From Spirochaetota bacterium (lineage in GTDB: Bacteria; Spirochaetota; Spirochaetia; SPDA01; B32-G16), in contig QNBH01000006.1 of assembly GCA_003645645.1 (NCBI GenBank), forward strand, positions 1-44,237: a stretch of 44,237 nt of DNA, in the 5' to 3' direction. Made by a program: the position numbers and the translations under genes. Positions 21,630-40,098 of the stretch are shown in pieces. The stretch's first letter is position 1. Each line of letters starts with the position of its first letter. The notes below the pieces were generated by a model. It was not told the DNA's origin. It did not search any database and saw only the letters and a list, made by a program, of their open reading frames with translations.

Positions 21630-22819
21630 TACTTTCTTTCCAGAATAAAGGGAAGAAGTGCATAAAAGGCAGAAGCCTTTTCCAGATGTTCAATCTGAAT
21701 TTTTTCGTTGGGGGCGTGGGCGTACTTCTCTTCTCCCGGACCGAAGCCGATTGTGGGAATACGGTGTCTCCCGCAGATGGCAACCCCGTTTGTTGAAAAT
21801 GTCCACCTATCTACAATTGCTTTCTCTCCAAACAGAAGAGAAAAGGTCTCATCGCCTGCATGAACAAGGGGATGATCTTCGGGGATCTTCCAGGTGGGAA
21901 AGTACATCTCCTGTGGATATAGAAGACCGGTATAGCTTCTGCTGTTGAATTGGGGTATCTCGATCTCGACCTCTTTTCCCAGAAGCCTGGATATCTCCCC
22001 CATAGCACTCTCCTTCGTCTCTCCCCAGGTAAGGCGCCTGTCCAGATGGAAACTGCTTCTGTCCGGAATGGCACACAGGGAGACTCCCTCAGATGATATG
22101 GAAGTAACCGCTATGGAACCTTTGCCCAGAAAATCATCTGATTTAAGTCTTTCGTTAAGGTTCTTTATTTTGAGAGCTGCATCCGCAGCCTTGTATATTG
22201 CGTTATCGCCTCTCTCCGGAGCAGACCCGTGGGCCGATCTTCCCTTAAAATGTACATCCATTTCCATTCTTCCCCGGTGCCCCCTGGTTATCTTCAGGTT
22301 GGACGGTTCGGTACTTACCGCCATATCTGGAACGAGCTTCTCTTCCTCTATAAGATATTTCCAGCACAGGCCGTCACAATCCTCTTCCATTACGGTGAAT
22401 GTGAAATAGAGGGAAAAATCTCCCTTGTAGGAGAGTTCTTTTAAAATCCTTCCGGAAGTGATCATTGCGGCAGCCCCACCCTTCTGGTCTGCACTGCCCA
22501 GGCCGAAAACCCAGCCATCCTTTACCTCACCCGAAAAGGGATCGTTCTCCCACTGCAATTTATCACCATGAGCTACCGTGTCGATATGGGCATCAAAGGC
22601 AAGGATCTTTCTGCCCTTGCCGATTCTGCCTATAAGATTACCCAGCCCGTCAACTCTTACCTCATCGAATCGTGCTTCTTTGAGCATGGTTTTTATTTTC
22701 TCTATAACCTTCTTCTCGTTGCAGGTAACCGAAGGAATTTTTACAATATCCGATAAGTTGCCTACAGTGTATTCCCTGTATTCCTCCGCCTTTTTTCTTA
22801 TTTTCTCCGCAAGTTCCAC
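21629..22819 (-). CDS. ygeY: YgeY-type M20 metallohydrolase
   Basis: 396 residues, M20/M28 dinuclear zinc amidohydrolase. The first metal motif is FDAHIDTVAHGD (H78, D80). The bridging Asp lies in GLGSADQKGG (D111), and the catalytic/metal Glu pair is in TVMEEDCDG (E145, E146). RGHRGRMEMDVHFKGRSAHG is the lid/dimerisation start. Overall it matches YgeY, a hydrolase linked by genome context to selenium-dependent molybdenum hydroxylase and purine or ureide catabolism; its own substrate is not established. The start is GTG with AAGGAG 9 bases upstream. It lies 67 bases after ssnA and its stop overlaps the next gene by one base. Confidence 0.85.
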   Translation of the reverse strand: MELAEKIRKKAEEYREYTVGNLSDIVKIPSVTCNEKKVIEKIKTMLKEARFDEVRVDGLGNLIGRIGKGRKILAFDAHIDTVAHGDKLQWENDPFSGEVKDGWVFGLGSADQKGGAAAMITSGRILKELSYKGDFSLYFTFTVMEEDCDGLCWKYLIEEEKLVPDMAVSTEPSNLKITRGHRGRMEMDVHFKGRSAHGSAPERGDNAIYKAADAALKIKNLNERLKSDDFLGKGSIAVTSISSEGVSLCAIPDRSSFHLDRRLTWGETKESAMGEISRLLGKEVEIEIPQFNSRSYTGLLYPQEMYFPTWKIPEDHPLVHAGDETFSLLFGEKAIVDRWTFSTNGVAICGRHRIPTIGFGPGEEKYAHAPNEKIQIEHLEKASAFYALLPFILERK

Positions 22820-22886
22820 CTCTTTCTCCTTAAAAAGATTTATTTTATGATGGCGCTAAATGTAAACCTTAAGTAGACGCACAATC

Positions 22887-24188
22887 TCAGTGTATCCTAT
22901 CCATCCTCTTCCACAGTGCCTCTGCCGCCACGGAAGCTTCCCTGTAAATGGGTCCGGTATCAAATAAAAAATTGCGATCTTTATAAACAACAGCACCATC
23001 TATGATCACAGTCTCCACATCCCGCGAAGACATACCAAATATAAAATGTCCTGCCAGATTATCTCCGACCAGAGGAGTAGGTGCATCGTAGTCCCATATA
23101 ACTAGATCTGCTTTGTAGTCTTTCCCGATTCTACCAAACTTCTCTCCGAAGTATTCGGAAAGTATGCGATTGCCGTTATGAAGGAAGTCAAGGATGTTTC
23201 CAGGAGAAAGCCCTGCGCCCTGATCGTTGCCTTTGAAAAAGGCAAACTTCATCTCCTCCAGCATATTACTTCCGATACCGTCGGTGCCAATGGCAACGTT
23301 TTTAAGTTCATGGAGATTGCCTCCATAACCCACACCATTGTTCATATTGGACCGTACATTATGAACCAGAAAACCTCCGGAATCGTTTAGCAGTTTAATA
23401 TCTTTCTCTGTAAGGTGCACCCCATGGGCAATAATAGCCTTCTCGTTTAGAAGTCCAAAATCTTCCAGTCTTTCAAGGGGATCTTTCCCATAGTTATGAT
23501 GAGAGTAGGAAGGGTCGTAAGAGTCTTCGGCTACGTGTATATGTATCCCCCTGCCGGTATCCTTAACTGCACCTGTAAGCATTTCCAGTATCCTTTCGGT
23601 TAAAGTGAAGGGAGCATGTGCTCCTATAGAGGCTTCTACAAGATTATCCCTCTCTTTTGTAAAGGAGATATTCTCCTGCACACCCTCTTCCGCTTCTTCT
23701 TCCCCGTTCCTGCAGGATACCTCGTAGCAGAGAATGCCCCTCAATCCAACATCTTTGAAGGATCTCTTAAGGGTCTTAAGCGAACCCCTTATAAAGGAGG
23801 GGGAGGCGTTATGATCGATTACAGCGGTTGTACCCGCCTTAACCGCTTCCAGGGCACCGATTAAACCGCTGTGGTAGAGACTTTGCTCATCGAGAGCTCG
23901 GTCAAGCCTCCACCAGAGATTCCGTAATATCGAAACAAAATCTGTTGCGGGTTTTATGCTTGCAATTATGCCCCTGGCCAGGGCTGAGTAAAAATGATTG
24001 TGACTGCACACAAGACCTGGAGTTACGATTTTCCCCTGGGCATCGATTGTCTCTGCCTTATCATGTTCTTCACTTAAATTTTTGCCAATCTTTATGATTT
24101 TACCACCCTCTATAAGGATATCAACAGTATCGTCGAAAACTTCCGGAGGGCTTAAGTTCACAGGACGACATTTCTTTATAAAAAGCAT
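22887..24188 (-). CDS. ssnA: SsnA-type amidohydrolase
   Basis: 433 residues of the amidohydrolase superfamily, related to chlorohydrolase/guanine-deaminase-like enzymes. The barrel metal motif CSHNHFYSALARG gives H63 and H65. HIHVAEDS, IIAHGVHLTEKD and AIGTDGIGSN supply the remaining His and Asp ligands. The N-terminal and C-terminal beta-sandwich segments (ILIEGGKIIKIG; YKADLVIWDYD) are intact. It matches SsnA, part of the putative selenium-dependent molybdenum-hydroxylase gene set with YgfK and YgeY. GGAGAAGG precedes the ATG. Only 12 bases separate it from ygfK, so they are cotranscribed. The exact substrate is unknown. Confidence 0.85.
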   Translation of the reverse strand: MLFIKKCRPVNLSPPEVFDDTVDILIEGGKIIKIGKNLSEEHDKAETIDAQGKIVTPGLVCSHNHFYSALARGIIASIKPATDFVSILRNLWWRLDRALDEQSLYHSGLIGALEAVKAGTTAVIDHNASPSFIRGSLKTLKRSFKDVGLRGILCYEVSCRNGEEEAEEGVQENISFTKERDNLVEASIGAHAPFTLTERILEMLTGAVKDTGRGIHIHVAEDSYDPSYSHHNYGKDPLERLEDFGLLNEKAIIAHGVHLTEKDIKLLNDSGGFLVHNVRSNMNNGVGYGGNLHELKNVAIGTDGIGSNMLEEMKFAFFKGNDQGAGLSPGNILDFLHNGNRILSEYFGEKFGRIGKDYKADLVIWDYDAPTPLVGDNLAGHFIFGMSSRDVETVIIDGAVVYKDRNFLFDTGPIYREASVAAEALWKRMDRIH

Positions 24189-24200
24189 ACCTTCTCCTTT

Positions 24201-27200
24201 TTATAACAGATATCCGTAATTTCTAAAAATAAGAGATATCATATCAAGGGCTTTATTGAGTTCATGATTTGCACAAGAAGCATTTTTTAAGTGGATATTT
24301 CCACTTTTCTCTACCCAGAGAGAGAAAATATCTCCGTTAAGCCTGAGCTCTCCTTCCGACTTTCCGTCTCCTGTTTTAAGAAAGAACCCGCTATTACCGC
24401 TGTCTTTAAAATCATCCTCCGATGCATAGAGTGTAAGCTTATCCTCGTAGGGTTTACCCTCATAAGGGCAGAAGGTGGCGCAGTTACCGCACTGGTTGCA
24501 CAATCCATCCAGATGGAGAATCTGAAAAAAATCTTTAAACCCCTCTACCTCCCCCCTTACCTGCAGGGCTATATTTGCCCGGTTTGGGCACACATCCACA
24601 CACTTGTTACACACCAGATCACATTCAAGACAACGTTCGGCTTCCCGACTGTAAAGAGAGCCCTCTTTAGAAAGGAAGAGCTTTCCCCTTTTTTTATATA
24701 TCCTTTCAGGTAAACCCCTGGCTGTAACTTCATCTCTCTTTAGGGATACGCCCTCTTTGAGAGCGATTGCTTCTGCTACCCTCTTTCCGTCGGCCATTGC
24801 CTCCACCACGGTGGAAGGCCCCCTCAAAGCATCACCACCAATAAAGAGATTTTCTTCTAAAGTCTCGAGGGTTTTCGGATTTACGGTTACCCTACCCCTG
24901 TTATCGGGATTAAGCCCTGCTTCTTTAAGGAGAGAACGATCGACCCTTTCTCCCACTGCCGATATAACGGTATCGACCTCTAAGGTTTCCGTCGTATCGA
25001 GTGGCACAGGCTTTCTTCTTCCGTCTGTGTCTGGTTCACCCAGGGTCATTTTTCTGCAGGTAAGAAAACCCTCCTCTGAGAAAGACTCGGGAGCCAAGAG
25101 AGTTTTAAAAATAACTCCATCTCGAAGGGCATTTTCAAACTCCTCCCTGTCGGCAGGCATTTCTTTCTCCGTTCTTCTGTACACGATTGTAACAGACTCC
25201 ACTCCGGGAAAACGAAGAGCGGCTCTTGCGCTGTCCATGGCGGTATTTCCGCCGCCGACAACCACCACCTTCTTTCCCAATTTTATTTCTCCGGGGTTCT
25301 CCTTGAAGCTGCGTAAAAAGGAGAGGGCAGGTATAACATTTGGGTTGGATCCTGAAAGCGAAAGCCTCTCCGATACCTCTGCACCTACTGCAAGAAATAT
25401 GTATTTAAAACCTTCTCTTTTAAGTTTTTCCAGGGAAATCCCTTTATCGCTGCCAAAGGTATAACCGAATTCAAAGGAGACCCCTTGCTTTTCTATGAAC
25501 TTAATATCCCTGCTTATAGCATCTCCCGGAATCCTGAAAGAAGGAAGTAAATGGGATACCACCCCTCCTGGTTTTTTCTCCTTCTCGAATACGGTCACCC
25601 TAAAACCTGCCCTTGCAAGGAAGCAGGCAGCGGTTAATCCGGCCGGTCCGGAACCTATAATTGCCACACGTACTCCGTTGCTCTTTTTCCGGCTTTCATC
25701 TTTCTCCGCCTCTTTCCATCCTTTCTCTGCGGCTATCCGCTTAAGCTCACGTATCTCGATCGCACCCTCATAGTCGAGTCGGGTACAGTTTGCCATGCAC
25801 TTATGATCACATATATACCCTGTAATGTTTGCCAGGGGGTTATCCTTAAGTATCGTATTGAGACTCTCTTCGAAGTTTTCCTCTCCTTCCAGCCTTATGT
25901 ATTGGGGAGCCTTTTGTGCAATCGCACAGGCATAGGTGCAGGGAGCTTCACAGCAGTCAAAGCGAGGAAGCTTTTTAAAAATCGATACTCTACCGAATCC
26001 TCTGAAGGATTTGCTGTAGTACCTGTCTTTATAGACACTTTCTTTAAGCTCATTGATAAGCTCTGTACTGGTTTTACCTTCCGAAGGCCACCTGTCCAGT
26101 TTCTCCAGTGCTTCGGCCATTTCATAAAGTCTTAAATATCCGCCTGGTTTAAGCAGTTCCGTTGCAACGGTAACCGGATATAGCCCTGCTTCAAATACCC
26201 CAGCCACATTACCCTGAAAAATGCCTCCGGCAAAGGAGATAGGCAGATTGCCCTCGAAATCTTCCGATAACATGGAAGCAACCCTTATTGTAAGAGGAAA
26301 AAGAGCCCTGCCCGACATATACATCTCTTCTCCCGGCAGTACTCCCTTATCGTTTACTGCTGGTAGGGTGTTGGAGAGTTTTACCCCGAAAAAAAGTCCT
26401 TCTTTTTCTGCCGTCTTTATAAGCCTCTTTAGTACCGGTACGGCCTGATCGTATTGAAGATCTTTCGTAAATGTTTTTTCGTTTAAGGTAATGTAGGAGA
26501 AACCCAGATCATCGAGAGTCCTTCTGGCCGTCTTCCATCCAACCAGGGTGGGATTTAGCTTTACCATTACCGGGAGTTTTTTCTCTTTCAACAGGTATTC
26601 GCAGATGCTTTCTATCTGATCGGGAGGGCATCCGTGCATTGTGGAGAGAGTAACGGAAGAGGCAATCCGCGGAGATATCTCCTCTAGATCCACCGATTTA
26701 AATATGTTATCTATCTCAACTCGCTTTTTTACGGAAGCGATCATCTCAGAAAATGCCGGATTTTTACCTGCATCTATCATACTGTTAATAAAATTATCCA
26801 TTCCCGGGGACTTTATCCCCTCGAGGTCATAGCCCACACTCATATTGAATAAAAATGAAGGGCTTTCTCCCGCCGATAAATCGAACAGCCTTTCCAAAAG
26901 ATGCAATATTATCCAGGCTCTTGCATATTCCAGAAAGGCATCCTTAAGGGATAGCTCAGTGGACCACTCGGTGTTATATCCCTCATCCGCTGCATCTATG
27001 CAGGGCTTTTCAAACTCCAGGCTGTCCATCTTCTGTACGGTCTTAAGCTCTATGAATCTGGCACCCGTCAGGTATGAAACAACTATATTTTGTGCGAGCT
27101 GAGTATGAGGCCCTGCAGCCGGCCCCAGTGGGCTTTCACAGCTTTTTCCGAAAAAGGTTATGGTTTTCTTGCTGTTTTTTCTAAAAAAGTGTGTTTCAGG

Positions 27201-27290
27201 GATTCCGAAAATGGTTTTACTGCTTTTGTATTCTTCGGAAATCCACCTTAAAAGTTTTTCCATGGGTATAGGTCGCATACGGTCGCTCAT
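24201..27290 (-). CDS. ygfK: YgfK-type iron-sulfur flavoprotein oxidoreductase (putative selenate reductase subunit)
   Basis: 1029 residues. The N-terminal 400 residues resemble a dihydroorotate/dihydropyrimidine-dehydrogenase barrel (GPAAGPHTQLAQNIVVSY; SSVTLSTMHGCPP). A cysteine-rich helical domain follows (FDCCEAPCTYACAIAQ; YICDHKCMANCTR). Then comes a glutamate-synthase small-subunit-like FAD domain (VAIIGSGPAGLTAACFLARA) and NAD domain (KVVVVGGGNTAMDSARAALR). The C-terminus holds CLECDLVCNKCVDVCP and CNQCGNCATFCP, two [4Fe-4S] sites. The layout is that of YgfK, which passes electrons between NAD(P)H and an unknown partner; the selenate reductase name is by homology. The ATG at 27290 follows GAGGAGG by five bases; the TTG just upstream is less likely. 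It is second in a five-gene operon. Confidence 0.9.
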   Translation of the reverse strand: MSDRMRPIPMEKLLRWISEEYKSSKTIFGIPETHFFRKNSKKTITFFGKSCESPLGPAAGPHTQLAQNIVVSYLTGARFIELKTVQKMDSLEFEKPCIDAADEGYNTEWSTELSLKDAFLEYARAWIILHLLERLFDLSAGESPSFLFNMSVGYDLEGIKSPGMDNFINSMIDAGKNPAFSEMIASVKKRVEIDNIFKSVDLEEISPRIASSVTLSTMHGCPPDQIESICEYLLKEKKLPVMVKLNPTLVGWKTARRTLDDLGFSYITLNEKTFTKDLQYDQAVPVLKRLIKTAEKEGLFFGVKLSNTLPAVNDKGVLPGEEMYMSGRALFPLTIRVASMLSEDFEGNLPISFAGGIFQGNVAGVFEAGLYPVTVATELLKPGGYLRLYEMAEALEKLDRWPSEGKTSTELINELKESVYKDRYYSKSFRGFGRVSIFKKLPRFDCCEAPCTYACAIAQKAPQYIRLEGEENFEESLNTILKDNPLANITGYICDHKCMANCTRLDYEGAIEIRELKRIAAEKGWKEAEKDESRKKSNGVRVAIIGSGPAGLTAACFLARAGFRVTVFEKEKKPGGVVSHLLPSFRIPGDAISRDIKFIEKQGVSFEFGYTFGSDKGISLEKLKREGFKYIFLAVGAEVSERLSLSGSNPNVIPALSFLRSFKENPGEIKLGKKVVVVGGGNTAMDSARAALRFPGVESVTIVYRRTEKEMPADREEFENALRDGVIFKTLLAPESFSEEGFLTCRKMTLGEPDTDGRRKPVPLDTTETLEVDTVISAVGERVDRSLLKEAGLNPDNRGRVTVNPKTLETLEENLFIGGDALRGPSTVVEAMADGKRVAEAIALKEGVSLKRDEVTARGLPERIYKKRGKLFLSKEGSLYSREAERCLECDLVCNKCVDVCPNRANIALQVRGEVEGFKDFFQILHLDGLCNQCGNCATFCPYEGKPYEDKLTLYASEDDFKDSGNSGFFLKTGDGKSEGELRLNGDIFSLWVEKSGNIHLKNASCANHELNKALDMISLIFRNYGYLL

Positions 27291-27333
27291 CAAATCCTCC
27301 TCGATGTAATTCTTTTTAAGAGAATGATTTTTG

Positions 27334-29402: not shown

Positions 29403-29936
29403 TTATGTAACGAGCCGTTTCATTGATACAACACCGATAAAATGACGCTTATCGAACGCCGCCTTGATAAGTGACGTCTGGTCGTTTCGGCTGGACGTAT
29501 TGACCATGAGAATCTCACCCTCACACAGTGTCTCTCCGAATCGATCGACCATCTCGACAATATCCCCTTTTTTCGGCAGGGGCAGATATTCGAACGGAAA
29601 AATGATTGAAGCACGATCCTGCTCAAAGGTGTAATCCTTTACATAGATGGCCAATCCCGGGCACGATGGCAAGCAGAGTCCACATCCAGTACACTTTCCT
29701 GCATCCAGCATTGGAAGCTCGGTAATATTATCTCCAATGGTTATCGCCCCTCTGGGGCATGCCGTCTCACAGGGATTGCAGGGAATTTTTTCGACACACT
29801 CTATGAATGCAACAGGTCCTGCGTAGAGGAACTCCTCCGATGGAAATCCGGGTGTTTGTGTCAGTTCCTCCAAGGTTGGAGTACCGCTCGTCTTGACTCC
29901 TTCAGACTGCCAAGCCTTTTTTTTCGTATCATTCAT
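29403..29936 (-). CDS. Two-cluster 4Fe-4S ferredoxin, probable electron acceptor subunit
   Basis: 177 residues from the ATG at 29936, which overlaps the TGA of the upstream flavoprotein gene by four bases (ATGA). Two cysteine motifs, CNPCETACPRGAI and CTGCGLCLPSCPGLAI, each supply four ligands, three before a proline-capped fourth, for [4Fe-4S] clusters. The C-terminal third (KKGDIVEMVDRFGETLCEGE) forms a small beta-rich domain with a nucleotide-sensing or docking look. It is the last gene of the island operon. By position it should carry electrons from the flavoprotein dehydrogenase to the respiratory or Rnf system, an inference. An upstream in-frame start would overlap the flavoprotein gene by about 90 bases and is unlikely. 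Confidence 0.85.
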   Translation of the reverse strand: MNDTKKKAWQSEGVKTSGTPTLEELTQTPGFPSEEFLYAGPVAFIECVEKIPCNPCETACPRGAITIGDNITELPMLDAGKCTGCGLCLPSCPGLAIYVKDYTFEQDRASIIFPFEYLPLPKKGDIVEMVDRFGETLCEGEILMVNTSSRNDQTSLIKAAFDKRHFIGVVSMKRLVT

Positions 29937-31030
29937 TGTGTCATGCTCTTCATAGAGATAATCTTCTCCTTCGCCTTTCTCCGACCCTCTCCAAACGGAC
30001 CAGACCTCAGAACATCCAGACGCTCCCATATCTGGTGGGAGAGCTCTTCCTCTTTGTCCGCGGAATAGAGCCCGAGGGAAGCTGAGGCATGGATTCCCGA
30101 AAGACGTCCCTCCTCCATCGCAGTGCTCGCCTCTTCCACCCCAGCTATATCACCTGCAACATAGATGGATTCTATACTTGTCCTCATCCGTCTGTCATGG
30201 ACCGGAACATGTCCTCCGAGGGATGGTATGAAACATATTTCGCATCCTGCTAACATTGCCAATTCGATTAGAGGTGTGAGTCCAGCAGCGATACAGACCG
30301 TATCGGCTTCTAACTCCTTTTCGGTGCCCGCTACAGGTTTCCAATACTCATCCAACCTCACGATCACCACTGACTCGACCGACTCCTTTCCTCTAGCTTC
30401 CAGGACTGTATGAGAGGTGAAAAAGGGTACTCCGGCTCGTCTCAACTTAGCCGTATGCACGCCGTATCCCCCGAGTCGCGGAGCCGCCTCTACGACTGCG
30501 ATGACATCGGCTCCCGCCTGGAGCAACTGGTACGAGACAATCACCCCAACGTTACCGGATCCGATCATTACTACACGATTCCCGGGAATGACCCGATGGA
30601 GGTTGATCATCGTTTGCGCTGCTCCCGCCCCCATGACGCCCGGTAAAGTCCACCCGGAGAACGCAACGGCATTCTCGGTCGCTCCGGTAGCCAGAATGAT
30701 CTTCCGAGCCTTCAAACGTCGGGATTCCCGGCGATTTTTAACTATCCATAGTTCCGTACCACCGTATATGCCGCATACTTCACAGTTCAGCCAAACGTCT
30801 ATATCGAGTTTGCGGGCCCTAAGCAGTAGTTCTTCTCCGATGCGGAACCCACGGACACCAGCGTGGTGCTCACGGGAGCCGAAGAACTTATGGATCTGCT
30901 TGAAAAGCTGCCCACCTGGTTTTGTGTTTTCATCGATCAAAATGACATTGGCTCCGGCCTCTGCGCACTCTATGGCCGCAGAAAGCCCTGCAGGGCCCGC
31001 TCCAACGACCGCCACATCAGTGAATACCAT
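29933..31030 (-). CDS. FAD/NAD-binding subunit of a multi-component amino-acid dehydrogenase (HcnB/OoxA-like)
   Basis: 365 residues. It starts VAVVGAGPAGLSAAIECAEA (GxGxxG at 10-15), the FAD Rossmann motif, and has a second nucleotide fold, VVMIGSGNVGVIVSYQL. IILATGATENAVAF and IYVAGDIAGVEEAS are hallmark segments of the pyridine-nucleotide-disulfide group. It resembles the HcnB/opine-oxidase/D-hydroxyproline-dehydrogenase alpha subunit, but the C-terminal BFD-type [2Fe-2S] domain usual in that subunit is absent and is encoded as a separate small gene two positions upstream. The ATG at 31030 follows GGAGGAG and overlaps the preceding gene by 14 bases. It forms a complex with the adjacent iron-sulfur and DAO-type products by family analogy. 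Confidence 0.85.
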   Translation of the reverse strand: MVFTDVAVVGAGPAGLSAAIECAEAGANVILIDENTKPGGQLFKQIHKFFGSREHHAGVRGFRIGEELLLRARKLDIDVWLNCEVCGIYGGTELWIVKNRRESRRLKARKIILATGATENAVAFSGWTLPGVMGAGAAQTMINLHRVIPGNRVVMIGSGNVGVIVSYQLLQAGADVIAVVEAAPRLGGYGVHTAKLRRAGVPFFTSHTVLEARGKESVESVVIVRLDEYWKPVAGTEKELEADTVCIAAGLTPLIELAMLAGCEICFIPSLGGHVPVHDRRMRTSIESIYVAGDIAGVEEASTAMEEGRLSGIHASASLGLYSADKEEELSHQIWERLDVLRSGPFGEGRRKAKEKIISMKSMTQ

Positions 31031-31352
31031 GATCTCCTCCCCCCCAGCGGCCAATACCTCGCTGGGTTTCGATAATCATTCCGGGTTCCACTGGTGTAAC
31101 ACATGTACGGACATTAGGAATGCCATTGACGATCATTACACAGTCGGTGCATCTTCCGATCGCGCAGTAGAGGCCCCGGGGCTCTCGTCGTTTTTCTGTA
31201 TAACGGAATACTCGTCTCCCCGATGCCATCAGGGCTGCTGCAATCATCTCGCCTTCGTAGGCGATAACTTCCTCTCCATCCACAAGGATTGAGACCTCCC
31301 TCCCTGAAGGCTTCAACGGTCCGAGTATGGGATGTTCAGCTATTCTTGACAT
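31017..31352 (-). CDS. [2Fe-2S] ferredoxin-like subunit (HcnA/SoxA-N-like)
   Basis: 111 residues with a plant-type [2Fe-2S] pattern: C63, C68, C71 and C84 (YCAIGRCTDC then VRTC). The N-terminal part has the beta-grasp start VSILVDGEEVIAYEGEMIAAAL. It matches the small subunit of HCN synthase, opine oxidase and D-hydroxyproline dehydrogenase complexes, where it shuttles electrons between the flavin subunits. GAGGGGG precedes the ATG by four bases. Both ends overlap its neighbours (17 and 14 bases), which implies tightly coupled translation and a fixed stoichiometry. Confidence 0.87.
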   Translation of the reverse strand: MSRIAEHPILGPLKPSGREVSILVDGEEVIAYEGEMIAAALMASGRRVFRYTEKRREPRGLYCAIGRCTDCVMIVNGIPNVRTCVTPVEPGMIIETQRGIGRWGGGDHGIH

Positions 31353-31626
31353 TGCACCCCCTCGGTGAGAATATATCTATTCTGACCGGCCTCGATGGTG
31401 GTCTGGCAGTTACCGGTACAATCTCATCGAGAGGTTTGCCGGTTTTTTCTGCGATGATTCTTGCAATCAGCCTGGAACAAACTCTGCTCTGACAGAGTCC
31501 CATGCCAGCCCTTGTATACCTCTTAATTTCGTTAAGGGATGTACAACCATTATCAATTGCCTGAATGATTTCCTCTAGAGTTATCTCCTCACACCTGCAT
31601 ATTAATCGATTCTGTTCGTTCTCCAT
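31336..31626 (-). CDS. BFD-like [2Fe-2S] protein, split-off domain of the FAD subunit
   Basis: 96 residues. C10, C12, C45 and C50 (ICRCEEITLEEI, then GLCQSRVC) give the bacterioferritin-associated-ferredoxin type of [2Fe-2S] site, held by a helix-turn-helix-like bundle (IIQAIDNGCTSLNEIKRYTR). In HcnB-type subunits this domain is fused to the C-terminus of the FAD protein. Here it is a separate gene located before it, and the FAD protein is short by about this length. GAGGAAGTAAAGG precedes the ATG. It lies 26 bases after the DAO-type gene and overlaps the next gene by 17 bases. Confidence 0.85.
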   Translation of the reverse strand: MENEQNRLICRCEEITLEEIIQAIDNGCTSLNEIKRYTRAGMGLCQSRVCSRLIARIIAEKTGKPLDEIVPVTARPPSRPVRIDIFSPRGCNVKNS

Positions 31627-31652: not shown

Positions 31653-32834
31653 TCATACCACCATGCATCGTGGTATAAGTTCCTTCATATTGGTGATCGA
31701 CTTCCTGCCAGTAAATATATCGCTCAACAACTTTCCAGTAATCGGCGCCATAGCAATTCCATCCCCTTCATGACCCGAAGCCACATACAGCCCTTCTTTA
31801 CCGGGCCATGGGCCAAGGATCATTTTTCCGTCCGGGGTGGCAGGGCGGAATCCGGCGATGTGCCGGATGATATGTACATGCCTCATCAGCGGAATAATGT
31901 GAGCCACTTGTCTACTCAATGCTTCCAGAGCTCTATAGTCAACCAGTTTTTTGAATCCTGCCTGCTCCTCCCTCGTACTCCCTATCAGATAATTCCCGTG
32001 AGCAGTTCTTGTAAAGGAGAATCCCAAACCGAGCTCATTATATTCCGACTGGTTTTCCCTTACTTTCGCCAGATCAGGCCTCAGTTTAGTTACCATATAA
32101 GATGCACTCCAGAGATTCGTCTCTCCTATCGGAGGAATCTTCTCGGTAATCAGAAGCTGTCCGCGCCTGGGAAATATCGGTATCGAGATATCGAATAAAC
32201 CACCTACTATGTTCGACCATGCCCCTGCAGAAATCACAACATTCTCCGCTTCGACAATACATCCAGTACTGGTTAAAACCTGCCATCTGCCTGCCCCGTT
32301 TTTCTCAGCTGTGACCGCCGCCTCTCGGTATCGAACTTCCATGCCCAACCTTTGACCTGCATTTATAAAACCTTTCATGACTAAAAACGGATCGACTTGA
32401 GAATCATCTGGGCTGTAGGTAGAAGAAATGAACCGGTCAGAGACATGCGGTTGTCGCCGGCGCAGCTCTTCCCGATCCACGATATCCACATTCAACCCGC
32501 AGGAACGCTGGGATGAGACAAACTCCTCCATAACAGCCAGTTCCTCCTGGTTTTCAATCAGGATCATCCCCCCCATCTGCTTGAAACCCAAATCACAACC
32601 GAGCTCCATGTGGAGGAAACGATACATCTCAAGGCTTTCCATTGCCAGCTCCAGAACCACTCCCGGTTTCTTTGATTGAAGCAGGATCATATCATCACAG
32701 GCTCCGGAACTCCCGCTCCCGAACTCCATACTATCGATCACCTGTACTTTAAACCCTTCCCTGCTAAGGTAATACCCGCAGGAAAGTCCGATGATACCGC
32801 CTCCGATAACCAGTGAATCACAGTATCTTTTCAT
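31653..32834 (-). CDS. FAD-dependent D-amino-acid/imino-acid dehydrogenase, DAO family (HcnC-like beta subunit)
   Basis: 393 residues. It opens LVIGGGIIGLSCGYYLS (GxGxxG at 11-16) and keeps the DAO-family landmarks VVISAGAWSNIVGG, FPRRGQLLITE and, near the end, ASGHEGDGIAMAP for FAD contact. The family includes D-amino-acid dehydrogenase, glycine oxidase, sarcosine oxidase beta and D-hydroxyproline dehydrogenase beta; the substrate pocket cannot be assigned. With the three iron-sulfur or FAD partners downstream it should form a membrane-linked or ferredoxin-linked dehydrogenase that does not use oxygen. I take the ATG at 32834 with AAGGA seven bases before it; a TTG six bases upstream is disfavoured. 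The gap to the upstream Asd gene is 11 bases. Confidence 0.87.
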   Translation of the reverse strand: MKRYCDSLVIGGGIIGLSCGYYLSREGFKVQVIDSMEFGSGSSGACDDMILLQSKKPGVVLELAMESLEMYRFLHMELGCDLGFKQMGGMILIENQEELAVMEEFVSSQRSCGLNVDIVDREELRRRQPHVSDRFISSTYSPDDSQVDPFLVMKGFINAGQRLGMEVRYREAAVTAEKNGAGRWQVLTSTGCIVEAENVVISAGAWSNIVGGLFDISIPIFPRRGQLLITEKIPPIGETNLWSASYMVTKLRPDLAKVRENQSEYNELGLGFSFTRTAHGNYLIGSTREEQAGFKKLVDYRALEALSRQVAHIIPLMRHVHIIRHIAGFRPATPDGKMILGPWPGKEGLYVASGHEGDGIAMAPITGKLLSDIFTGRKSITNMKELIPRCMVV

Positions 32835-32845
32835 CGGCAATTCCT

Positions 32846-33874
32846 TTATGTTGCAGGTGTCAGCATCCGATTGTACAATGCCTCAGCAATCTGTACTGCG
32901 TTCAATGCCGCCCCTTTTCTCAAGTTGTCAGACACGACCCACAGATTAAGACCATGCATAAGAGTAGGGTCACGCCTGATCCGACCGACAAATACATTGT
33001 CTTTCCCTTCTGCTTCAGAAGCAATCGGATAAATTGCCTTGGTAGGGTCGTCAACTACTTTAACACCTGAGGCAGTAGAGAGAATATTGACCACCTCTTC
33101 GATAGTAAAAGAGTTTTCCACCTCTATATTCAACGCTTCGGAATGCCCACGGAACACCGGTATCCGAACTGCTGTAGGGCACACGCGTATTTTAGGATCA
33201 AGAATTTTGTGTGTCTCTTTCACCATCTTCATTTCCTCCTTCGTGTACCCTTCTTCCATAAAAACATCAATATGGGGAAGAGCATTGAATGCTATACGAT
33301 GTGGATATACTGAATGTCTCTCCGCCTCATCGATTTCTCCCTGCAAAAAGGCAATACTCTGACGTTTTAATTCCTCTATCGCCTTTAAGCCGCTTCCGGA
33401 TACGGCCTGGTAAGTGCTTACAACGACTCTCTTTACCTCATAATATCTGTGTAGCGGTCCGAGCACTAACAGCATCTGTATAGTCGAACAGTTTGGATTT
33501 GCGATGATTCCCCGGTGCCTTTGCACCGCTTCGATGTTAACCTCGGGAACCACCAGTGGAACTGTTGGATCCATTCTCCATTGCGCAGAATTATCGATAA
33601 CGACCGCCCCTTCTTCAACGGCTATGGGGGCAAGTTCGGCGCTCGCTTCCGCTCCTGCTGAAAACAATGCAATATCCGTACCTCTGAATACCTCCGGAAC
33701 AGTCTCGATTGTCCGGTATTCCCGCCCTCTGAACACTACCGGTTTTCCCTCATTTTCTTCTGTATCTGCTGGTATTAGCTCCCGGATAGGAATTTTTGAT
33801 CTTTCCAGGGTTTTGATCATTTCGGTCCCGACCGCGCCGGCCGAACCTACAACAACAATACGTAAACCATACAT
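32846..33874 (-). CDS. asd: Aspartate-semialdehyde dehydrogenase
   Basis: 342 residues, typical Asd length. The NADP-binding start is VVVGSAGAVGTEMI, the catalytic Cys is C129 in NPNCSTIQM, and YQAVSGSGLKAIEEL plus VFRGHSEAL supply the substrate Gln, Arg and His positions. It interconverts L-aspartyl-phosphate and L-aspartate 4-semialdehyde with NADP and phosphate. Such a biosynthetic enzyme is unexpected inside an amino-acid oxidation operon. Together with the DHDPS at the promoter-proximal end it suggests that aspartate semialdehyde is a product or intermediate. The ribosome site is poor. A 79-base gap separates it from the TRAP permease. Confidence 0.9.
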   Translation of the reverse strand: MYGLRIVVVGSAGAVGTEMIKTLERSKIPIRELIPADTEENEGKPVVFRGREYRTIETVPEVFRGTDIALFSAGAEASAELAPIAVEEGAVVIDNSAQWRMDPTVPLVVPEVNIEAVQRHRGIIANPNCSTIQMLLVLGPLHRYYEVKRVVVSTYQAVSGSGLKAIEELKRQSIAFLQGEIDEAERHSVYPHRIAFNALPHIDVFMEEGYTKEEMKMVKETHKILDPKIRVCPTAVRIPVFRGHSEALNIEVENSFTIEEVVNILSTASGVKVVDDPTKAIYPIASEAEGKDNVFVGRIRRDPTLMHGLNLWVVSDNLRKGAALNAVQIAEALYNRMLTPAT

Positions 33875-33953: not shown

Positions 33954-35873
33954 TTAAGTCTGGGAAGCAGATACAGCACTGTTTCGAATCATCACTCTCC
34001 TGTGCAGAATAAACAACACAAGAAGGGAAAAAACTCCTGTGACTAGAATGCTAACTTCTACAATAGGACTTGACAACAGTTCCTTTTGCGTCGAAAGCAG
34101 TATTAACCCAAAGGCTACTATAAGACTTAAGAACTGTTCGTGTACCTTCAGGGTTCTTAACAAATATCCTCTCATACCTCCGGCTGTAAAAATCAAAGCG
34201 GGGAAAATAATGATTATTATTGTAACAATTTCCATGAAAGTTCCCTGCATAAGCAAAGCCGGATTAAATATGAAAATGTAAGGAATAATAAAGCCGACCG
34301 ATGCCAGCCTGAGCGCCTCAAAGCCTGTTTGGAAAGGTTGAGACTCCGCAATTGATGCTGCACAATACGCAGCGATACAAACAGGAGGGGTTACCCCCGC
34401 CAGGATTGCAAAATAAAACACAAATAGATGAGCTTGCAACAACCCAACCCCCATAGCCTGCAACGCAGGCCCTCCGATGGTTACCGCTATGATATACGCA
34501 GGTGTACAGGGGAGCCCCATTCCGAGTAGTAGTGAAGTGAACATGATAAGCATCAGGGCAGGAAGAAGTATACCTCCAGACCATGTGGAAATGACCGCCG
34601 ATATACCGAGAGCAAGGCCGGTATAGGTCACGATACTAACAATCATATCCGCACCTGCACATGATAAAGCGAGCATTATCATGTTCTGTCCTGCGAGTCG
34701 AAAGGTTTCGAAAAGTTTTTTAGGTGTCAGCCAGGTTTTCCGGTTTACAAAGCTGAGTACAAAAGTACCGGCAATTGCCCAGATCGCTGCCACAAAGGGT
34801 GAATATCCGATCACAAGCATTACCACCAGCAGAACCAATGGAATCAATTGATAAGAGTCGATTAAAAGCTGCCTTGTTGAAACCTGCTCCTCCTCGCTAA
34901 CACCACCCAGATTGTGTTTCTTTGCATAGAAATGTACTCTGAAAACCAGGCTGATGTAATAAAATGTTGCCCCGAGCAAAGCGGCTACTACAATACGTAT
35001 ATATGGAATGCCTGTTATCTCTGACATAACGAAAGCGCCGGCTCCCATGACCGGAGGCATTAGCATACCACCTGTGGAAGCAGCAGCCTCCACCGCCCCG
35101 GCGAACTTTTTCTTGTATCCGAGACGCTTCATCAATGGAATAGTGAACACCCCGGTAGCATAGACATTTGCTGCGGCTACACCACTGATCGAGCCGAATA
35201 GACCGCTACTTATGACAGCTATTTTTGCGGGTCCACCCGGACCATTACCGGCCAGTTTGCAGGCAAGATTTGTAAAATACGCTCCAGTATTCGTGTTCTG
35301 CATGAAGGAGCCGAATATTACGAATATTGCCACAAACGTAGCGGTTACACCAACGATGGATCCGTAAATCCCCGCATTTGTAATTAGATAGTTGATCTCA
35401 ACGATTCTTTCGATGGGCATAGGCTTGCTGTAGAACACGCCGGACATATAGGGTGCTACAAAGAGATAGCCTAAGAATACACTCACAAATATTGCCATCA
35501 TAGGTACGACAGCCCGGCGAAGTGCTTCGATTATGAGACCTATGTTCAGAAGCCCTAGGAGTAGTGCCTGAGTGGAAATTGGATCGACCAGCTCGAACCG
35601 CATATTCAGTTGATCGTTGTAATACATTACGAAAACCGGCGGCAGCACCGCAAGAAGCGCCAATATTACATCAAGAATAGATGGTCTGTCCTTTGGAGAC
35701 TTTTTCGTAGCCGGAAATAGCAGAAAGGCCATTGGCAGTACTACAATCATCAAAGCGCCTCGCTGAATCCTTGGCTGGAAGACTCCGAATATTGCTGTAT
35801 ATAAATTAAACAGCGCTAATCCCGCCAATACGACGCTTATGAACCATTTCAACCATCCCTTTATCTCACGCAT
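33954..35873 (-). CDS. TRAP transporter fused permease, TAXI-associated (4TM/12TM)
   Basis: 639 residues and almost entirely hydrophobic, with about 17 membrane helices. The N-terminal four correspond to DctQ and the rest to DctM. Conserved DctM features include GLFGSISGVAAANVYATGVF, EAAASTGGMLMPPVMGAGAF and LLLGMGLPCTPAYIIAVTI. It imports a small carboxylate or amino-acid type substrate by sodium or proton symport together with the TAXI binding protein encoded directly upstream. AAGGAG precedes the ATG by eight bases. A 12-bp stem-loop in the gap to the TAXI gene may lower expression of the permease relative to the binding protein. Confidence 0.92.
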   Translation of the reverse strand: MREIKGWLKWFISVVLAGLALFNLYTAIFGVFQPRIQRGALMIVVLPMAFLLFPATKKSPKDRPSILDVILALLAVLPPVFVMYYNDQLNMRFELVDPISTQALLLGLLNIGLIIEALRRAVVPMMAIFVSVFLGYLFVAPYMSGVFYSKPMPIERIVEINYLITNAGIYGSIVGVTATFVAIFVIFGSFMQNTNTGAYFTNLACKLAGNGPGGPAKIAVISSGLFGSISGVAAANVYATGVFTIPLMKRLGYKKKFAGAVEAAASTGGMLMPPVMGAGAFVMSEITGIPYIRIVVAALLGATFYYISLVFRVHFYAKKHNLGGVSEEEQVSTRQLLIDSYQLIPLVLLVVMLVIGYSPFVAAIWAIAGTFVLSFVNRKTWLTPKKLFETFRLAGQNMIMLALSCAGADMIVSIVTYTGLALGISAVISTWSGGILLPALMLIMFTSLLLGMGLPCTPAYIIAVTIGGPALQAMGVGLLQAHLFVFYFAILAGVTPPVCIAAYCAASIAESQPFQTGFEALRLASVGFIIPYIFIFNPALLMQGTFMEIVTIIIIIFPALIFTAGGMRGYLLRTLKVHEQFLSLIVAFGLILLSTQKELLSSPIVEVSILVTGVFSLLVLFILHRRVMIRNSAVSASQT

Positions 35874-35989: not shown

Positions 35990-37033
35990 CTATTTTATCA
36001 ATCCAACTTCGCGATAATACTTTTCAGCTCCAGGGTGCAAAGGAACCGATGTATTGGGTGCATTTTCCCTGGTAAAATACTTTTGGAATCCCGGGTGGAG
36101 GGATTTCACCTCCTCGATCTTTTCCATTAAGACCTTCACAAACAGATAGGCGATGTTATCAGGCAGGGTGCTACTTGCACAGATCTGGGTGGAATGACCG
36201 ATTGTCTGGATATCCATGTCCATCCCTGTGTAAGTACCAGCGGGCACGAAACTGACACCAGAGCTCAAGGGTACCGTTCCCAGTTTTTCGGCGAAATGGT
36301 CAATGACTTTGTCTTCGATACTCATCAGAATCGACGGGCGGGAAATCGCCATTTCCGTTATTGCTGCACCCGGAAGCCCCAAGCATGCGAAGGCATAATC
36401 CACATGCCGATCCTTGTATATATTTACCATATCGCCATAGACAGCATAAGTCACTCTCCCGCCTGCTGCTTCGATCGACTCTAAGGAAAGTCCGTAGTAA
36501 TCCAGAAGCATCGTGGTCAGTGCATAATCGGATGTTCCTCTTGGCGATAAGGCCACCTTGATTTTTTCTCCGTTCTTTATTTTCTGAACAAACTGCTCGA
36601 AAGTCGTAACACCTGTCGATTTTGCAGCAAGGTAATGATAGAAATCCACCGAGAAATTTCCGGCAAGGCCATAGAAATTATCATATTTCCGGTCGAAAAG
36701 CGCTTTAAGGCCTGTGTATGCGGCCTTGTCTACATAGCTGACTCCCCAGCCAATATCATCCTGACCTTCCGACAACTTTAACGGGTTAGCGAGACCTCCG
36801 CCTGGAATTACCTTGATTGTCAAATTTGGTTCGACCTCATTAATGATTCTAGCCATGCCTCCTGCTGTCGTGTACCATCCACCGCCCATACCCCCAGCCG
36901 TCCAGGTCAGCGTGATCGGTTTGATCGTATCCACCGGCTCTACCTTAGCCGATTCCGTCTGTCCACCTGCGAACAACATTCCGGCTATTATAAACATTAC
37001 AAAAACCAGAATGCTTCTCCATAACTTCTTCAT
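35990..37033 (-). CDS. TAXI family TRAP transporter solute-binding protein
   Basis: 347 residues. The N-terminus is a signal peptide (KKLWRSILVFVMFIIAGMLF) ending FAGGQTES without a cysteine, so it should be a soluble periplasmic protein; this ending is common in spirochaete binding proteins. The mature part begins with LTWTAGGMGGGWYTTAGGMA and continues IKVIPGGGLANPL, the ligand-binding loops of the TAXI family. It captures the substrate for the fused permease. AAGGAGG lies 5 bases before the ATG. A consensus promoter with an overlapping operator lies directly upstream, so it can be transcribed apart from dapA. The ligand is unknown. Confidence 0.9.
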   Translation of the reverse strand: MKKLWRSILVFVMFIIAGMLFAGGQTESAKVEPVDTIKPITLTWTAGGMGGGWYTTAGGMARIINEVEPNLTIKVIPGGGLANPLKLSEGQDDIGWGVSYVDKAAYTGLKALFDRKYDNFYGLAGNFSVDFYHYLAAKSTGVTTFEQFVQKIKNGEKIKVALSPRGTSDYALTTMLLDYYGLSLESIEAAGGRVTYAVYGDMVNIYKDRHVDYAFACLGLPGAAITEMAISRPSILMSIEDKVIDHFAEKLGTVPLSSGVSFVPAGTYTGMDMDIQTIGHSTQICASSTLPDNIAYLFVKVLMEKIEEVKSLHPGFQKYFTRENAPNTSVPLHPGAEKYYREVGLIK

Positions 37034-37082: not shown

Positions 37083-37101
37083 CTACTCATCTTATGAGTA
37101 G
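37083..37101. promoter_or_regulatory. Operator of the island regulator, TAXI promoter
   Basis: CTACTCAT-CTT-ATGAGTAG, perfect 8-bp arms around a 3-base centre. It lies immediately downstream of the -10 box at 37109-37114, over the expected transcription start. The same sequence recurs at 38103-38123 in the same relation to the dapA promoter, which argues for a shared repressor. Confidence 0.78.
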
Positions 37102-37108
37102 CTATTCT

Positions 37109-37136
37109 ATTATACCATACAACCTCTGTTTGTCAA
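37109..37136 (-). promoter_or_regulatory. Consensus sigma-70 promoter for the TAXI gene
   Basis: On the minus strand, TTGACA (37131-37136) and TATAAT (37109-37114), both perfect consensus, with a 16-base spacer. Confidence 0.85.
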
Positions 37137-37145
37137 GATTTTTTT

Positions 37146-38051
37146 TCAATTTTTTTCTCTGATTTTCTCCCTGCTTTCCGAAATATTTAACATGGTAAGG
37201 ACTCGTTCAATTTCCAGTCTATGCTCCGGGCTGATACGGCGAAGCGGAAGCCGATATGTATCGAGAATAAGACCCTTTAACGACATGGCGGCTTTAATGG
37301 GGATCGGGTTTGATTCCAGGAACAATGCTTTGAAAAACGGAAGCATCCGGTAGTGAAGCTTCCTCCCCTCCTCCCATCGAAAGGAAAGACATGCATCTAC
37401 CATATCCACTATCTCCTTCGGAAAAAGGTTGCTTGCCACAGATATTACACCTGATCCTCCGAGTGCAATGATGGGGAAGGATAGATTATCGTCTCCTGAG
37501 AGTATGTCAAACCCCTGTGGAACCTGTGCGAGCAAATCCATTATACCCTGAATATTGCCGCTAGCTGCCTTGACCGCGACGATCCTCGGATGTTTCGTAA
37601 GCTCAAGAATTGTATGGTTCTCAAGGGCTACTCCGGTTCGTCCAGGCACATCGTAGAGCACCATTGGTATGTCTACTGCATTCGCAATGGCAATAAAATG
37701 TTCGTAGAGTCCTTCCTGGGACGGCTTATTGTAGTACGGGACTACCTGTAATGTTGCATCCGCTCCCAAATCTTCAGCCACCTCTGCCTGACGTATCGCC
37801 TTTTCGGTGCAGTTAGCACCGGCCCCTGCGATAACCGGCACCCTTCCCGCAGTCTGTTCAACAACGATTCTAATGACATTAGATATTTCATTGGGACTAA
37901 GAGTCGGGCTTTCACCAGTCGTACCTATAGGTACAAGCCCGGCAATTCCTGAAGCTATCTGAAACTCGACAAGCTCCCTCATTTTATTTTCGTCAATTTC
38001 CTTAGATGCGGTAAAGGGAGTTACCAGGGCAGTATAAACTCCTCGATACAT
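37146..38051 (-). CDS. dapA: Dihydrodipicolinate synthase (4-hydroxy-tetrahydrodipicolinate synthase)
   Basis: 301 residues. All DHDPS active-site residues stand at the E. coli numbers: T44/T45 (PIGTTGES), Y107 (YYNKP), Y133 and R138 (YDVPGRTG) and Schiff-base K161 (VAVKAASGN). NPIPIKAAMSLKG is also kept. R138, which holds the aspartate-semialdehyde carboxylate, argues for true DHDPS and against a hydroxyproline-pathway deaminase of the same fold. The reaction condenses pyruvate with L-aspartate semialdehyde and can in principle run backwards. It is the first gene of the minus-strand island operon, has AAGGAGG before its ATG and its own promoter-operator, and diverges from the regulator gene. 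A housekeeping copy is probably present elsewhere. Confidence 0.9.
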   Translation of the reverse strand: MYRGVYTALVTPFTASKEIDENKMRELVEFQIASGIAGLVPIGTTGESPTLSPNEISNVIRIVVEQTAGRVPVIAGAGANCTEKAIRQAEVAEDLGADATLQVVPYYNKPSQEGLYEHFIAIANAVDIPMVLYDVPGRTGVALENHTILELTKHPRIVAVKAASGNIQGIMDLLAQVPQGFDILSGDDNLSFPIIALGGSGVISVASNLFPKEIVDMVDACLSFRWEEGRKLHYRMLPFFKALFLESNPIPIKAAMSLKGLILDTYRLPLRRISPEHRLEIERVLTMLNISESREKIREKN

Positions 38052-38102
38052 ACAGCCTCCTTCTTGAAAAATAGTTAAAAATATAGTATACTAATAAAAG
38101 TA

Positions 38103-38123
38103 ACTACTCATCTTAGGAGTAGT
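38103..38123. promoter_or_regulatory. Operator of the island regulator, dapA promoter
   Basis: ACTACTCAT-CTT-AGGAGTAGT, 9-bp arms with one mismatch and the same centre as the TAXI operator. It directly abuts the dapA -10 box. A further short perfect palindrome, TAGTATACTA, lies at 38084-38093 in the dapA leader. Confidence 0.78.
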
Positions 38124-38151
38124 AGTATAACATTGTAGCGCAGAAAGTCAA
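38124..38151 (-). promoter_or_regulatory. Promoter for dapA and the island operon
   Basis: On the minus strand, TTGACT (38146-38151) and TATACT (38124-38129) with a 16-base spacer, the same architecture as the TAXI promoter. Confidence 0.8.
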
Positions 38152-38241: not shown

Positions 38242-38982
38242 ATGAAGAATGAGCGCAGCTTGAAAATTCTGGAAATCGTTTCCCGTGCTGATAAGCCTGT
38301 AGGTTCATGGTATATCGCGAATAAACTCTCTGAGGTAGGGATCGAAGTCAGCTTTGCTACCATCGGCCGAGATCTCAATTCCCTCGAGCAGAAAGGATTT
38401 TTGAAAAAAAACGGTATCAAGGGGCGTACCATAACTCCCCTTGGGGTTGAGGCACTATTAAAAAGCAAAAAAAAGCAGAGTATTGAAGAACACAATACCA
38501 AACTCGTCAATTTAATAAACAGCAATGTTTTAAAAAATTTTTTAATGGTTTTAGAAGCTCGAAAAACCATAGAGATGACCACAGCACGTCTTGCCGCCCA
38601 AAACATCACTGACAATGAATTGAAAAAGCTTTCCGATATTCTCACAAAACAACAAAAGAGCTACATGCTGAATAAAAGCGCCGCTTTGGAAGATATAGAA
38701 TTCCATCGAACGATTGCCATAGCATCGAGAAACGAGGTTCTGTCTTCTCTGTACATGTTCATAGCTACGATGGGACAACAGTCTGAGCTTTTCGAACAGC
38801 TCTGGAGAAAGCTTCATAAACCCTACATGGGATACCATCAGTCAATCTACGAGTCGTTAAAGGAACACTCTCCGGAAAAGGCGGAAAAATATATGGAAGC
38901 ACACCTCAACCAGCTCTGTCGCGATGTGGAAAACTTCTGGCATGAGTTTAATGAAAACAAATCAATTTCAAATGATTCTTAG
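38242..38982 (+). CDS. Transcriptional regulator: RNase-R-type winged helix plus FCD ligand domain
   Basis: 246 residues from the ATG at 38242, which follows AAGGAGG by 6 bases; an upstream TTG at 38200 lacks one. Residues 1-72 (LKILEIVSRADKPVGSWYIA, then SFATIGRDLNSLEQKGFL and GRTITPLGVEAL) look like the winged helix found in NrpR and RNase R, not the GntR winged helix. Residues about 95-235 are an FCD domain with the D-H-H-H metal/ligand set D151, H155 (EDIEFHRTIA), H199 and H221. FCD domains sense small carboxylates and amino acids, so the operon substrate or a product is the likely effector. Divergent from dapA, it presumably binds the two operator palindromes. Confidence 0.82.
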   Translation: MKNERSLKILEIVSRADKPVGSWYIANKLSEVGIEVSFATIGRDLNSLEQKGFLKKNGIKGRTITPLGVEALLKSKKKQSIEEHNTKLVNLINSNVLKNFLMVLEARKTIEMTTARLAAQNITDNELKKLSDILTKQQKSYMLNKSAALEDIEFHRTIAIASRNEVLSSLYMFIATMGQQSELFEQLWRKLHKPYMGYHQSIYESLKEHSPEKAEKYMEAHLNQLCRDVENFWHEFNENKSISNDS

Positions 38983-39439: not shown

Positions 39440-39682
39440 ATGGAGACTATTTCTGTATCTAAACTCAAGGCACACTTAAGTGCCGAATTAAAGAAGGTTA
39501 AAAAGGGTGTCCGGATTGTAGTAGTTGATCATAAACGGCCGGTTGCAGTTCTCTCCCCCTTTGAATCCGAGCCTCTCTTTTTGCAGGAAGCCTCAAAAAC
39601 GTACGAATACAGAGAACTCTCTCCTCTTACACACACCGATCCTCTTGTTAAGCTAAATGAGGAACGGGAAGATCGATGTTAG
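39440..39682 (+). CDS. Phd/YefM-type antitoxin
   Basis: 80 residues. METISVSKLKAHLSAELKKV and then VRIVVVDHKRPVAVLSPFE is the fold of the Phd/YefM family, whose N-terminus dimerises and binds the operon's own promoter. The C-terminal tail (LFLQEASKTYEYRELSPLTH) should wrap and neutralise the PIN toxin encoded next, with which it overlaps by 7 bases. No ribosome site lies before the ATG, consistent with a leaderless message. The last 123 bases before the final codons are duplicated at 29191-29313. Confidence 0.88.
   Translation: METISVSKLKAHLSAELKKVKKGVRIVVVDHKRPVAVLSPFESEPLFLQEASKTYEYRELSPLTHTDPLVKLNEEREDRC
39545..39667 (+). repeat. 123-bp direct repeat, right copy (island boundary)
   Basis: Same orientation and 119 of 123 bases identical to 29191-29313. 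It lies wholly inside the intact antitoxin gene. Recombination between the two copies would delete 10354 bases, exactly the catabolic operon and its regulator. Confidence 0.9.
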
Positions 39683-40098
39683 GTTACCTCGATTCCTCTG
39701 TAGCGTTACGTCGTATCCTGCTCGGAGAAGCAGCTATTTTTCAGGTGTTTAATTGTGAAAGCGTAGTGTCGAGTGAGCTTCTTGAAGTTGAGTGTCGCCG
39801 TGTTATTTATCGATATCGTATGGATGGGGATATAGATGATGAAGGCCTTATTCAGGCTTTCGAACGGCTGGAAATGATCCTCAAGGGAATATCGATACTG
39901 GCTCTTTCACGGACAATTAAAAAACGGGCAATGGGACCGTTTCCGGTAAGTATTAAAACTCTCGATGCACTACATCTTGCTTCCGCCCTTGTACTTGCCG
40001 AAAACCGGCAGGATGAGACAATCTTAATATTCTCACATGATGTTGCGATGAATCGCTGTGCAAGGGCACTCGGTTTCTCAACCCCTTTTTTGGAGTAG
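39676..40098 (+). CDS. vapC: PIN-domain toxin, VapC-like ribonuclease
   Basis: 140 residues. The PIN acidic residues are in place: D6 (GYLDSSVALRRIL), a Glu in ELLEVECRR (E34 or E37), D97 (KTLDALHLASAL) and D122 (FSHDVAMNRCARALGF). VapC toxins are magnesium-dependent endoribonucleases, often cutting tRNA or rRNA. The ATG overlaps the end of the antitoxin gene by 7 bases, with GGAACGGGAAG upstream, so the two are translationally coupled and toxin cannot be made without antitoxin message. The pair appears intact and functional. Confidence 0.88.
   Translation: MLGYLDSSVALRRILLGEAAIFQVFNCESVVSSELLEVECRRVIYRYRMDGDIDDEGLIQAFERLEMILKGISILALSRTIKKRAMGPFPVSIKTLDALHLASALVLAENRQDETILIFSHDVAMNRCARALGFSTPFLE

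Follow-up and report, generated by a model that had tools for sequence, protein, structure and literature searches.

A palindromic operator and a divergent HTH_12-FCD regulator predicted to control a TAXI-TRAP operon and a dapA paralogue in spirochaetes

Two near-identical palindromes occur at neighbouring promoters in a 44,237-nucleotide stretch of a Spirochaetota genome (contig QNBH01000006.1, positions 1 to 44,237; hereafter the window), one upstream of a dapA paralogue and the other upstream of a gene for a TAXI-type TRAP solute-binding protein, which raises the question of whether they are operators and, if so, of which regulator. The genes concerned form a block on the minus strand, comprising the dapA paralogue itself (4-hydroxy-tetrahydrodipicolinate synthase; 37146–38051, TIGR00674 over cut-off), the TAXI-type protein (35990–37033, TIGR02122), a fused TRAP permease (33954–35873, TIGR02123), aspartate-semialdehyde dehydrogenase (asd; 32846–33874, TIGR01296 over cut-off), an FAD-dependent amine oxidoreductase of the DAO family (31653–32840), a BFD-like [2Fe-2S] subunit (31336–31626), a Fer2_4 [2Fe-2S] subunit (31017–31352), a Pyr_redox_2 flavoprotein subunit (29933–31054) and, as the conserved last gene, a 4Fe-4S ferredoxin-like subunit (29403–30029). 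Both dapA and asd pass equivalog models.

The palindrome at the TAXI promoter, hereafter operator 1 (37083–37101), has the form CTACTCAT-CTT-ATGAGTAG (in full CTACTCATCTTATGAGTAG), with perfect 8-bp arms and a 3-nt spacer, while that at the dapA promoter, operator 2 (38104–38122), has the form CTACTCAT-CTT-AGGAGTAG (in full CTACTCATCTTAGGAGTAG) and carries a single mismatch between its arms. The twin palindromes described in the earlier note were thus both found, as were the twin minus-strand promoters with 16-nt spacers, one for dapA and one for TAXI. The TAXI promoter (37109–37136) comprises a -35 box TTGACA (37136–37131) and a -10 box TATAAT (37114–37109), matching the consensus at 12 of 12 positions; the dapA promoter (38124–38151), with TTGACT (38151–38146) and TATACT (38129–38124), matches at 10 of 12, and TG precedes the -10 box in both. 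Each operator lies downstream of its -10 box, at a distance of 7 nt for TAXI and 1 nt for dapA, so that both would cover the expected start site, as the earlier note had proposed, and it is from this position that we infer repression by the regulator.

The palindrome could have been common across the genome, which would have spoken against the regulon proposed in the earlier note. A search allowing up to 3 mismatches returned operators 1 and 2 as the sole matches in the genome to which the window belongs (3.98 Mb in 380 contigs, 96.95% complete), so the palindrome is rare in this genome. A relaxed TACTCNTNNNANGAGTA search returned one extra exact match (C20:4483), which lies within the open reading frame of an ABC-type permease and is therefore probably due to chance.

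The gene divergent from dapA (38242–38982, plus strand) encodes a protein of 246 residues. The earlier note had placed a divergent regulator here, which holds, although its nature needed refinement: rather than a plain GntR protein, it combines an HTH_12 winged helix (residues 8–72; PF08461, 43.7 bits against a cut-off of 21.4) with an FCD sensor domain (residues 103–223; PF07729, 73.9 bits against a Pfam cut-off of 24.3). Both domains match all 20 orthologues, for which the GntR HTH (PF00392) does not appear among the families listed, and no other HTH_12 protein was found in the same genome. In an AlphaFold2 model (mean pLDDT 82), the winged domain consists of helices 4–15, 22–31 and 38–50, the last being the recognition helix, together with a two-strand wing, and the C-terminal part is an all-helical bundle; a Foldseek search with this model placed the protein among GntR/FCD regulators, including NanR, PdhR and DhdR. 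Among the 20 orthologues, G42, R43, L45, L48 and E49 of the HTH are invariant and S37 and A39 nearly so, and in the FCD domain R107, D151, H155, H199 and H221 are invariant. The latter are the counterparts of residues that were described as binding metal and carboxylate in CitO, TM0439 and LldR (PMC4746285).

The link between operator and regulator was examined across genomes. Scanning genome contigs with the single protein revealed no relative, while an alignment of four orthologues retrieved 16 loci, nearly all from spirochaetes. Many of these carry CTACTCAT-N3-ATGAGTAG sites upstream of a dapA divergent from the regulator gene, frequently with others before TAXI, asd or DAO, and sites upstream of one of these four genes were found at about 15 loci. 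Counterparts of operator 1 precede TAXI in G003, G010, G217 and G279, and at no fewer than 12 other loci a counterpart of operator 2 precedes dapA. The G217 cluster contains up to five sites, namely those of TAXI, DAO, dapA and asd and a weaker one before the regulator gene. Weaker second sites between dapA and the regulator gene in L052, L063 and L067 suggest that the regulator may control its own synthesis there; no second site of this kind was seen between the two genes in the window. The 20 distinct operators have an information content of about 26 bits, for which fewer than 0.1 chance sites are expected per 4 Mb. A strong promoter (-35 box with at least 5 of 6 and -10 box with at least 4 of 6 consensus positions), its -10 box ending between 2 nt inside the operator and 9 nt before it (-2 to +9), accompanies 25 of the 29 sites with 3-bp spacing; when upstream regions were shuffled, the same promoter count averaged 0.2 and did not exceed 3. 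At the regulated promoters, the operators thus overlap the predicted start site.

Among 395 genomes of the class, the motif CTACTCATNNNATGAGTAG (up to 1 mismatch) is present in 12 and a regulator orthologue in 17, with both in 10 (Fisher p=5e-14); at the genus level, six of the seven motif-bearing genera have the regulator (p=2e-7). The reversed control pattern occurs in 9 of the 395 genomes, none of which has the regulator. The proposed connection is consequently supported by comparison, the same operator being found almost only in genomes with a regulator orthologue, where it stands at the promoters of corresponding genes. G132 and G383, which have the motif but not the regulator, each contain one 1-mismatch match, in or at the edge of open reading frames and away from the target genes, and these are taken as chance matches. 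Seven genomes have the regulator without the motif; two of them, G236 and G276, have 2-mismatch sites at dapA, and two more, G358 and G378, belong to a clade with wider half-site spacing that is described below. No site was found in G098, G231 and G252, whose regulator homologues are 48%, 42% and 30% identical, and no target genes were seen in the region around the homologue in G098 and G231. Conversely, G377 contains the target block on a contig that ends inside TAXI, and neither a regulator nor a site with up to 3 mismatches was found there.

When half-site spacings from 0 to 15 bp were scanned, 3 bp (n = 28) and 6 bp (n = 9) recurred, and 13 bp was found once (n = 1). The 6-bp clade (G358, G378 and L068–L070) has the same half-sites upstream of TAXI, equally placed with respect to a TTGACA promoter; sites with this spacing lie upstream of TAXI at L068 5065–5086, L069 5602–5623, L070 5636–5657, L116 14379–14400 and L143 4062–4083. 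The regulator gene of this clade lies within the operon, and the recognition helix of its product reads ASIGRxLYxLE instead of ATIGRxLNxLE. The 3-bp and 6-bp spacings of the two clades represent a natural experiment in the co-evolution of operator and regulator. A regulator of 45% identity was also observed in L071, on a contig titled Synergistaceae (DIMS01000112.1), together with CTGCTCATGTGATGAGCAG and CTACTCATGAGATGAGCAG, which suggests either an occurrence of the system outside spirochaetes or a mislabelled bin.

Taken as a whole, these comparisons support the identity and conservation of the operators, their co-occurrence with the regulator, the promoter geometry, the domain architecture and the content of the regulon, while physical binding, the sign of control, the effector and the pathway are what we infer. 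Very probably, the palindromes are operators of the divergent HTH_12-FCD regulator, acting as a local repressor of dapA and the TAXI-TRAP operon. It is unlikely that they serve another, unlinked transcription factor with the divergent regulator as a bystander. Linkage and co-occurrence are correlational, and the regulator gene is co-inherited with the target genes, being present in 14 of the 15 genomes with a DAO protein (at least 47% identity); nevertheless, motif presence tracks the regulator over 10 genomes in 6 genera, the site lies between dapA and the regulator gene in most loci where the two diverge, and the clade with altered spacing is also altered in the recognition helix. Activation through the same operator and regulator, or repression by the ligand-bound form, is also quite unlikely, although FCD activators such as CitO do exist (PMC4746285), since the operators cover the probable start site (about -6 to +20) instead of standing upstream of the -35 box, and most of the promoters come close to consensus and should work unaided.

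The palindrome might instead act in RNA, as a hairpin at the 5' end of the transcript affecting mRNA stability or attenuation. Its 8-bp arms and 3-nt loop could fold, it stands at the predicted 5' end, and a simple scan labels it terminator-like. Arguing against this, only 2 of 160 cells in the 20 distinct operators are double changes, a number reached by 116 of 500 shuffles, conservation concerns the sequence itself beyond mere pairing, and where the gap is -2 to +1, as at several promoters, the left arm would lie partly upstream of the start site. With no covariation beyond that of shuffles in the pair counts, a DNA site is the better account and the hairpin a very improbable one. The likeness of the two sites and their promoters might also reflect plain duplication of a promoter fragment, or chance; given that the promoters differ outside the motif, which recurs in other families together with the regulator, either would be extremely improbable.

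Under the preferred reading, that of a local repressor, a regulator dimer would place one winged helix on each CTACTCAT half-site, over the start sites of dapA and the TAXI-TRAP operon, and would thereby block initiation by RNA polymerase at both promoters. The dimer would be released by an effector, probably a carboxylate that occupies the conserved metal site of the FCD domain. The local regulon would then comprise the TAXI-TRAP importer, the oxidoreductase formed by the DAO, [2Fe-2S] and flavoprotein subunits, asd and a DapA paralogue without the lysine feedback site.

This last feature emerges from the sequence of the window DapA, which scores 349 bits with TIGR00674 against a cut-off of 206 and keeps the catalytic motifs of the family (TT44-45, PYYNKP and LYDVPGR), and which has P53, I56 and K84 at the lysine-allosteric positions instead of H53, H56 and E84. 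The paralogue in the same genome (G000:C4:39014–39874) keeps all three. In the two-DapA genomes examined, the operator-bearing copy lacks the full H53/H56/E84 set and the other copy keeps it, with the qualification that position 84 was unreadable by motif search in some operator-bearing sequences and that G003 keeps H53; paralogue pairs of this pattern also occur in L052, L060, L062, L063, L066 and L109. The E84K substitution is cited in PMC8821502 as abolishing the lysine sensitivity of the maize enzyme. The window DapA is thus probably lysine-insensitive, suggesting an enzyme taken out of lysine feedback; a DapA tree did not show a single clade or origin for the operator-bearing copies. As a separate observation, L052 (4793–6004) and G000:C60:605–1822 encode a DapB with an aspartokinase-type ACT region fused at its C-terminus. 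In the genome of the window no DapB match besides the latter was found, and in G010 and G217 the DapB-ACT fusion comes after the operator-controlled dapA in the same orientation.

The regulated block may be compared with known catabolic and biosynthetic systems. Hydroxyproline catabolic clusters contain 4-hydroxyproline epimerase (4HypE), a DAAO-family dehydrogenase and a DHDPS-family deaminase (PMC4113996), and the window block likewise combines a DAO-family oxidoreductase and a DapA-family enzyme with a TRAP transporter. It differs in that the block was found to carry asd in place of an aldehyde dehydrogenase gene, and in that its DapA passes the true dapA model. Hydroxyproline catabolism is disfavoured, the proline racemase/4HypE family (PF05544) being missing from 14 of the 16 regulator genomes; it occurs in the other two, and in the genome of the window lies only on other contigs. 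Regulation of the lysine (diaminopimelate, DAP) pathway, as by the lysine riboswitch, also targets asd and dapA, and in Sphaerochaetaceae-like genomes the regulator gene adjoins dapB-dapA-dapL and, where looked at, lysA; here, however, a protein regulator would act on the paralogue of lysine-insensitive type and spare the lysine-sensitive-type copy. A tentative and rather doubtful proposal is that lysine-pathway enzymes run backwards under HTH_12-FCD control: a cyclic or dicarboxylic amino acid, such as a derivative of DAP or of dipicolinate, would be imported by the TRAP transporter and oxidised by the DAO complex, the lysine-insensitive DapA would cleave the product, and Asd would process the resulting aspartate semialdehyde.

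Regarding the regulator itself, the FadR-type operator core is TnGTnnnACnA, and the window operator, CTACTCAT-N3-ATGAGTAG, looks unlike it. NrpR and other HTH_12 (PF08461) proteins share with the regulator an HTH_12 domain over cut-off; NrpR binds GGAA-N6-TTCC, unlike the operator described here, and carries the NrpR domain where the regulator has an FCD sensor. An FCD sensor with conserved metal-site residues is shared with the FCD-subfamily GntR proteins NanR, DgoR, HypR, LldR, DhdR and CitO. Repressors of this subfamily similarly pair a local divergent gene with a palindromic operator at an uptake or catabolic promoter, and the window regulator differs from them in using HTH_12 for DNA binding, PF00392 being unmatched in the 20 orthologues. 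The open-access literature searched contained nothing relevant on HTH_12 plus FCD regulators, Sphaerochaeta dapA regulators, FCD/TRAP operators or dipicolinate/TRAP degradation, nor was an HTH_12-FCD operator family, which the sequences support well, found described there; the kind of control predicted, that of a local uptake or catabolic repressor, is familiar.

Two further groups of genes were observed in the window. Downstream of the regulator gene (39440–40098), a small open reading frame, by eye a Phd/YefM-type antitoxin, overlaps a gene for a PIN-domain protein, a probable VapBC-like toxin-antitoxin pair. At 20466–27293, genes for a PLP enzyme, a peptidase-like protein, an amidohydrolase and a YgfK-like oxidoreductase stand in a row, which we take to resemble the E. 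coli ygeX/ygeY/ssnA/ygfK cluster.

The HTH_12-FCD regulator is best read as repressing, locally, an operon for uptake and amine oxidation that has a DapA of its own, probably a lysine-insensitive one. Its architecture suggests that FCD sensors may pair with a second kind of DNA reader, HTH_12. In a lineage few of whose regulators have been studied, the analysis provides a complete predicted operator-regulator pair from sequence alone, a small gene-control circuit whose operator and unusual regulator recur together in other spirochaetes.
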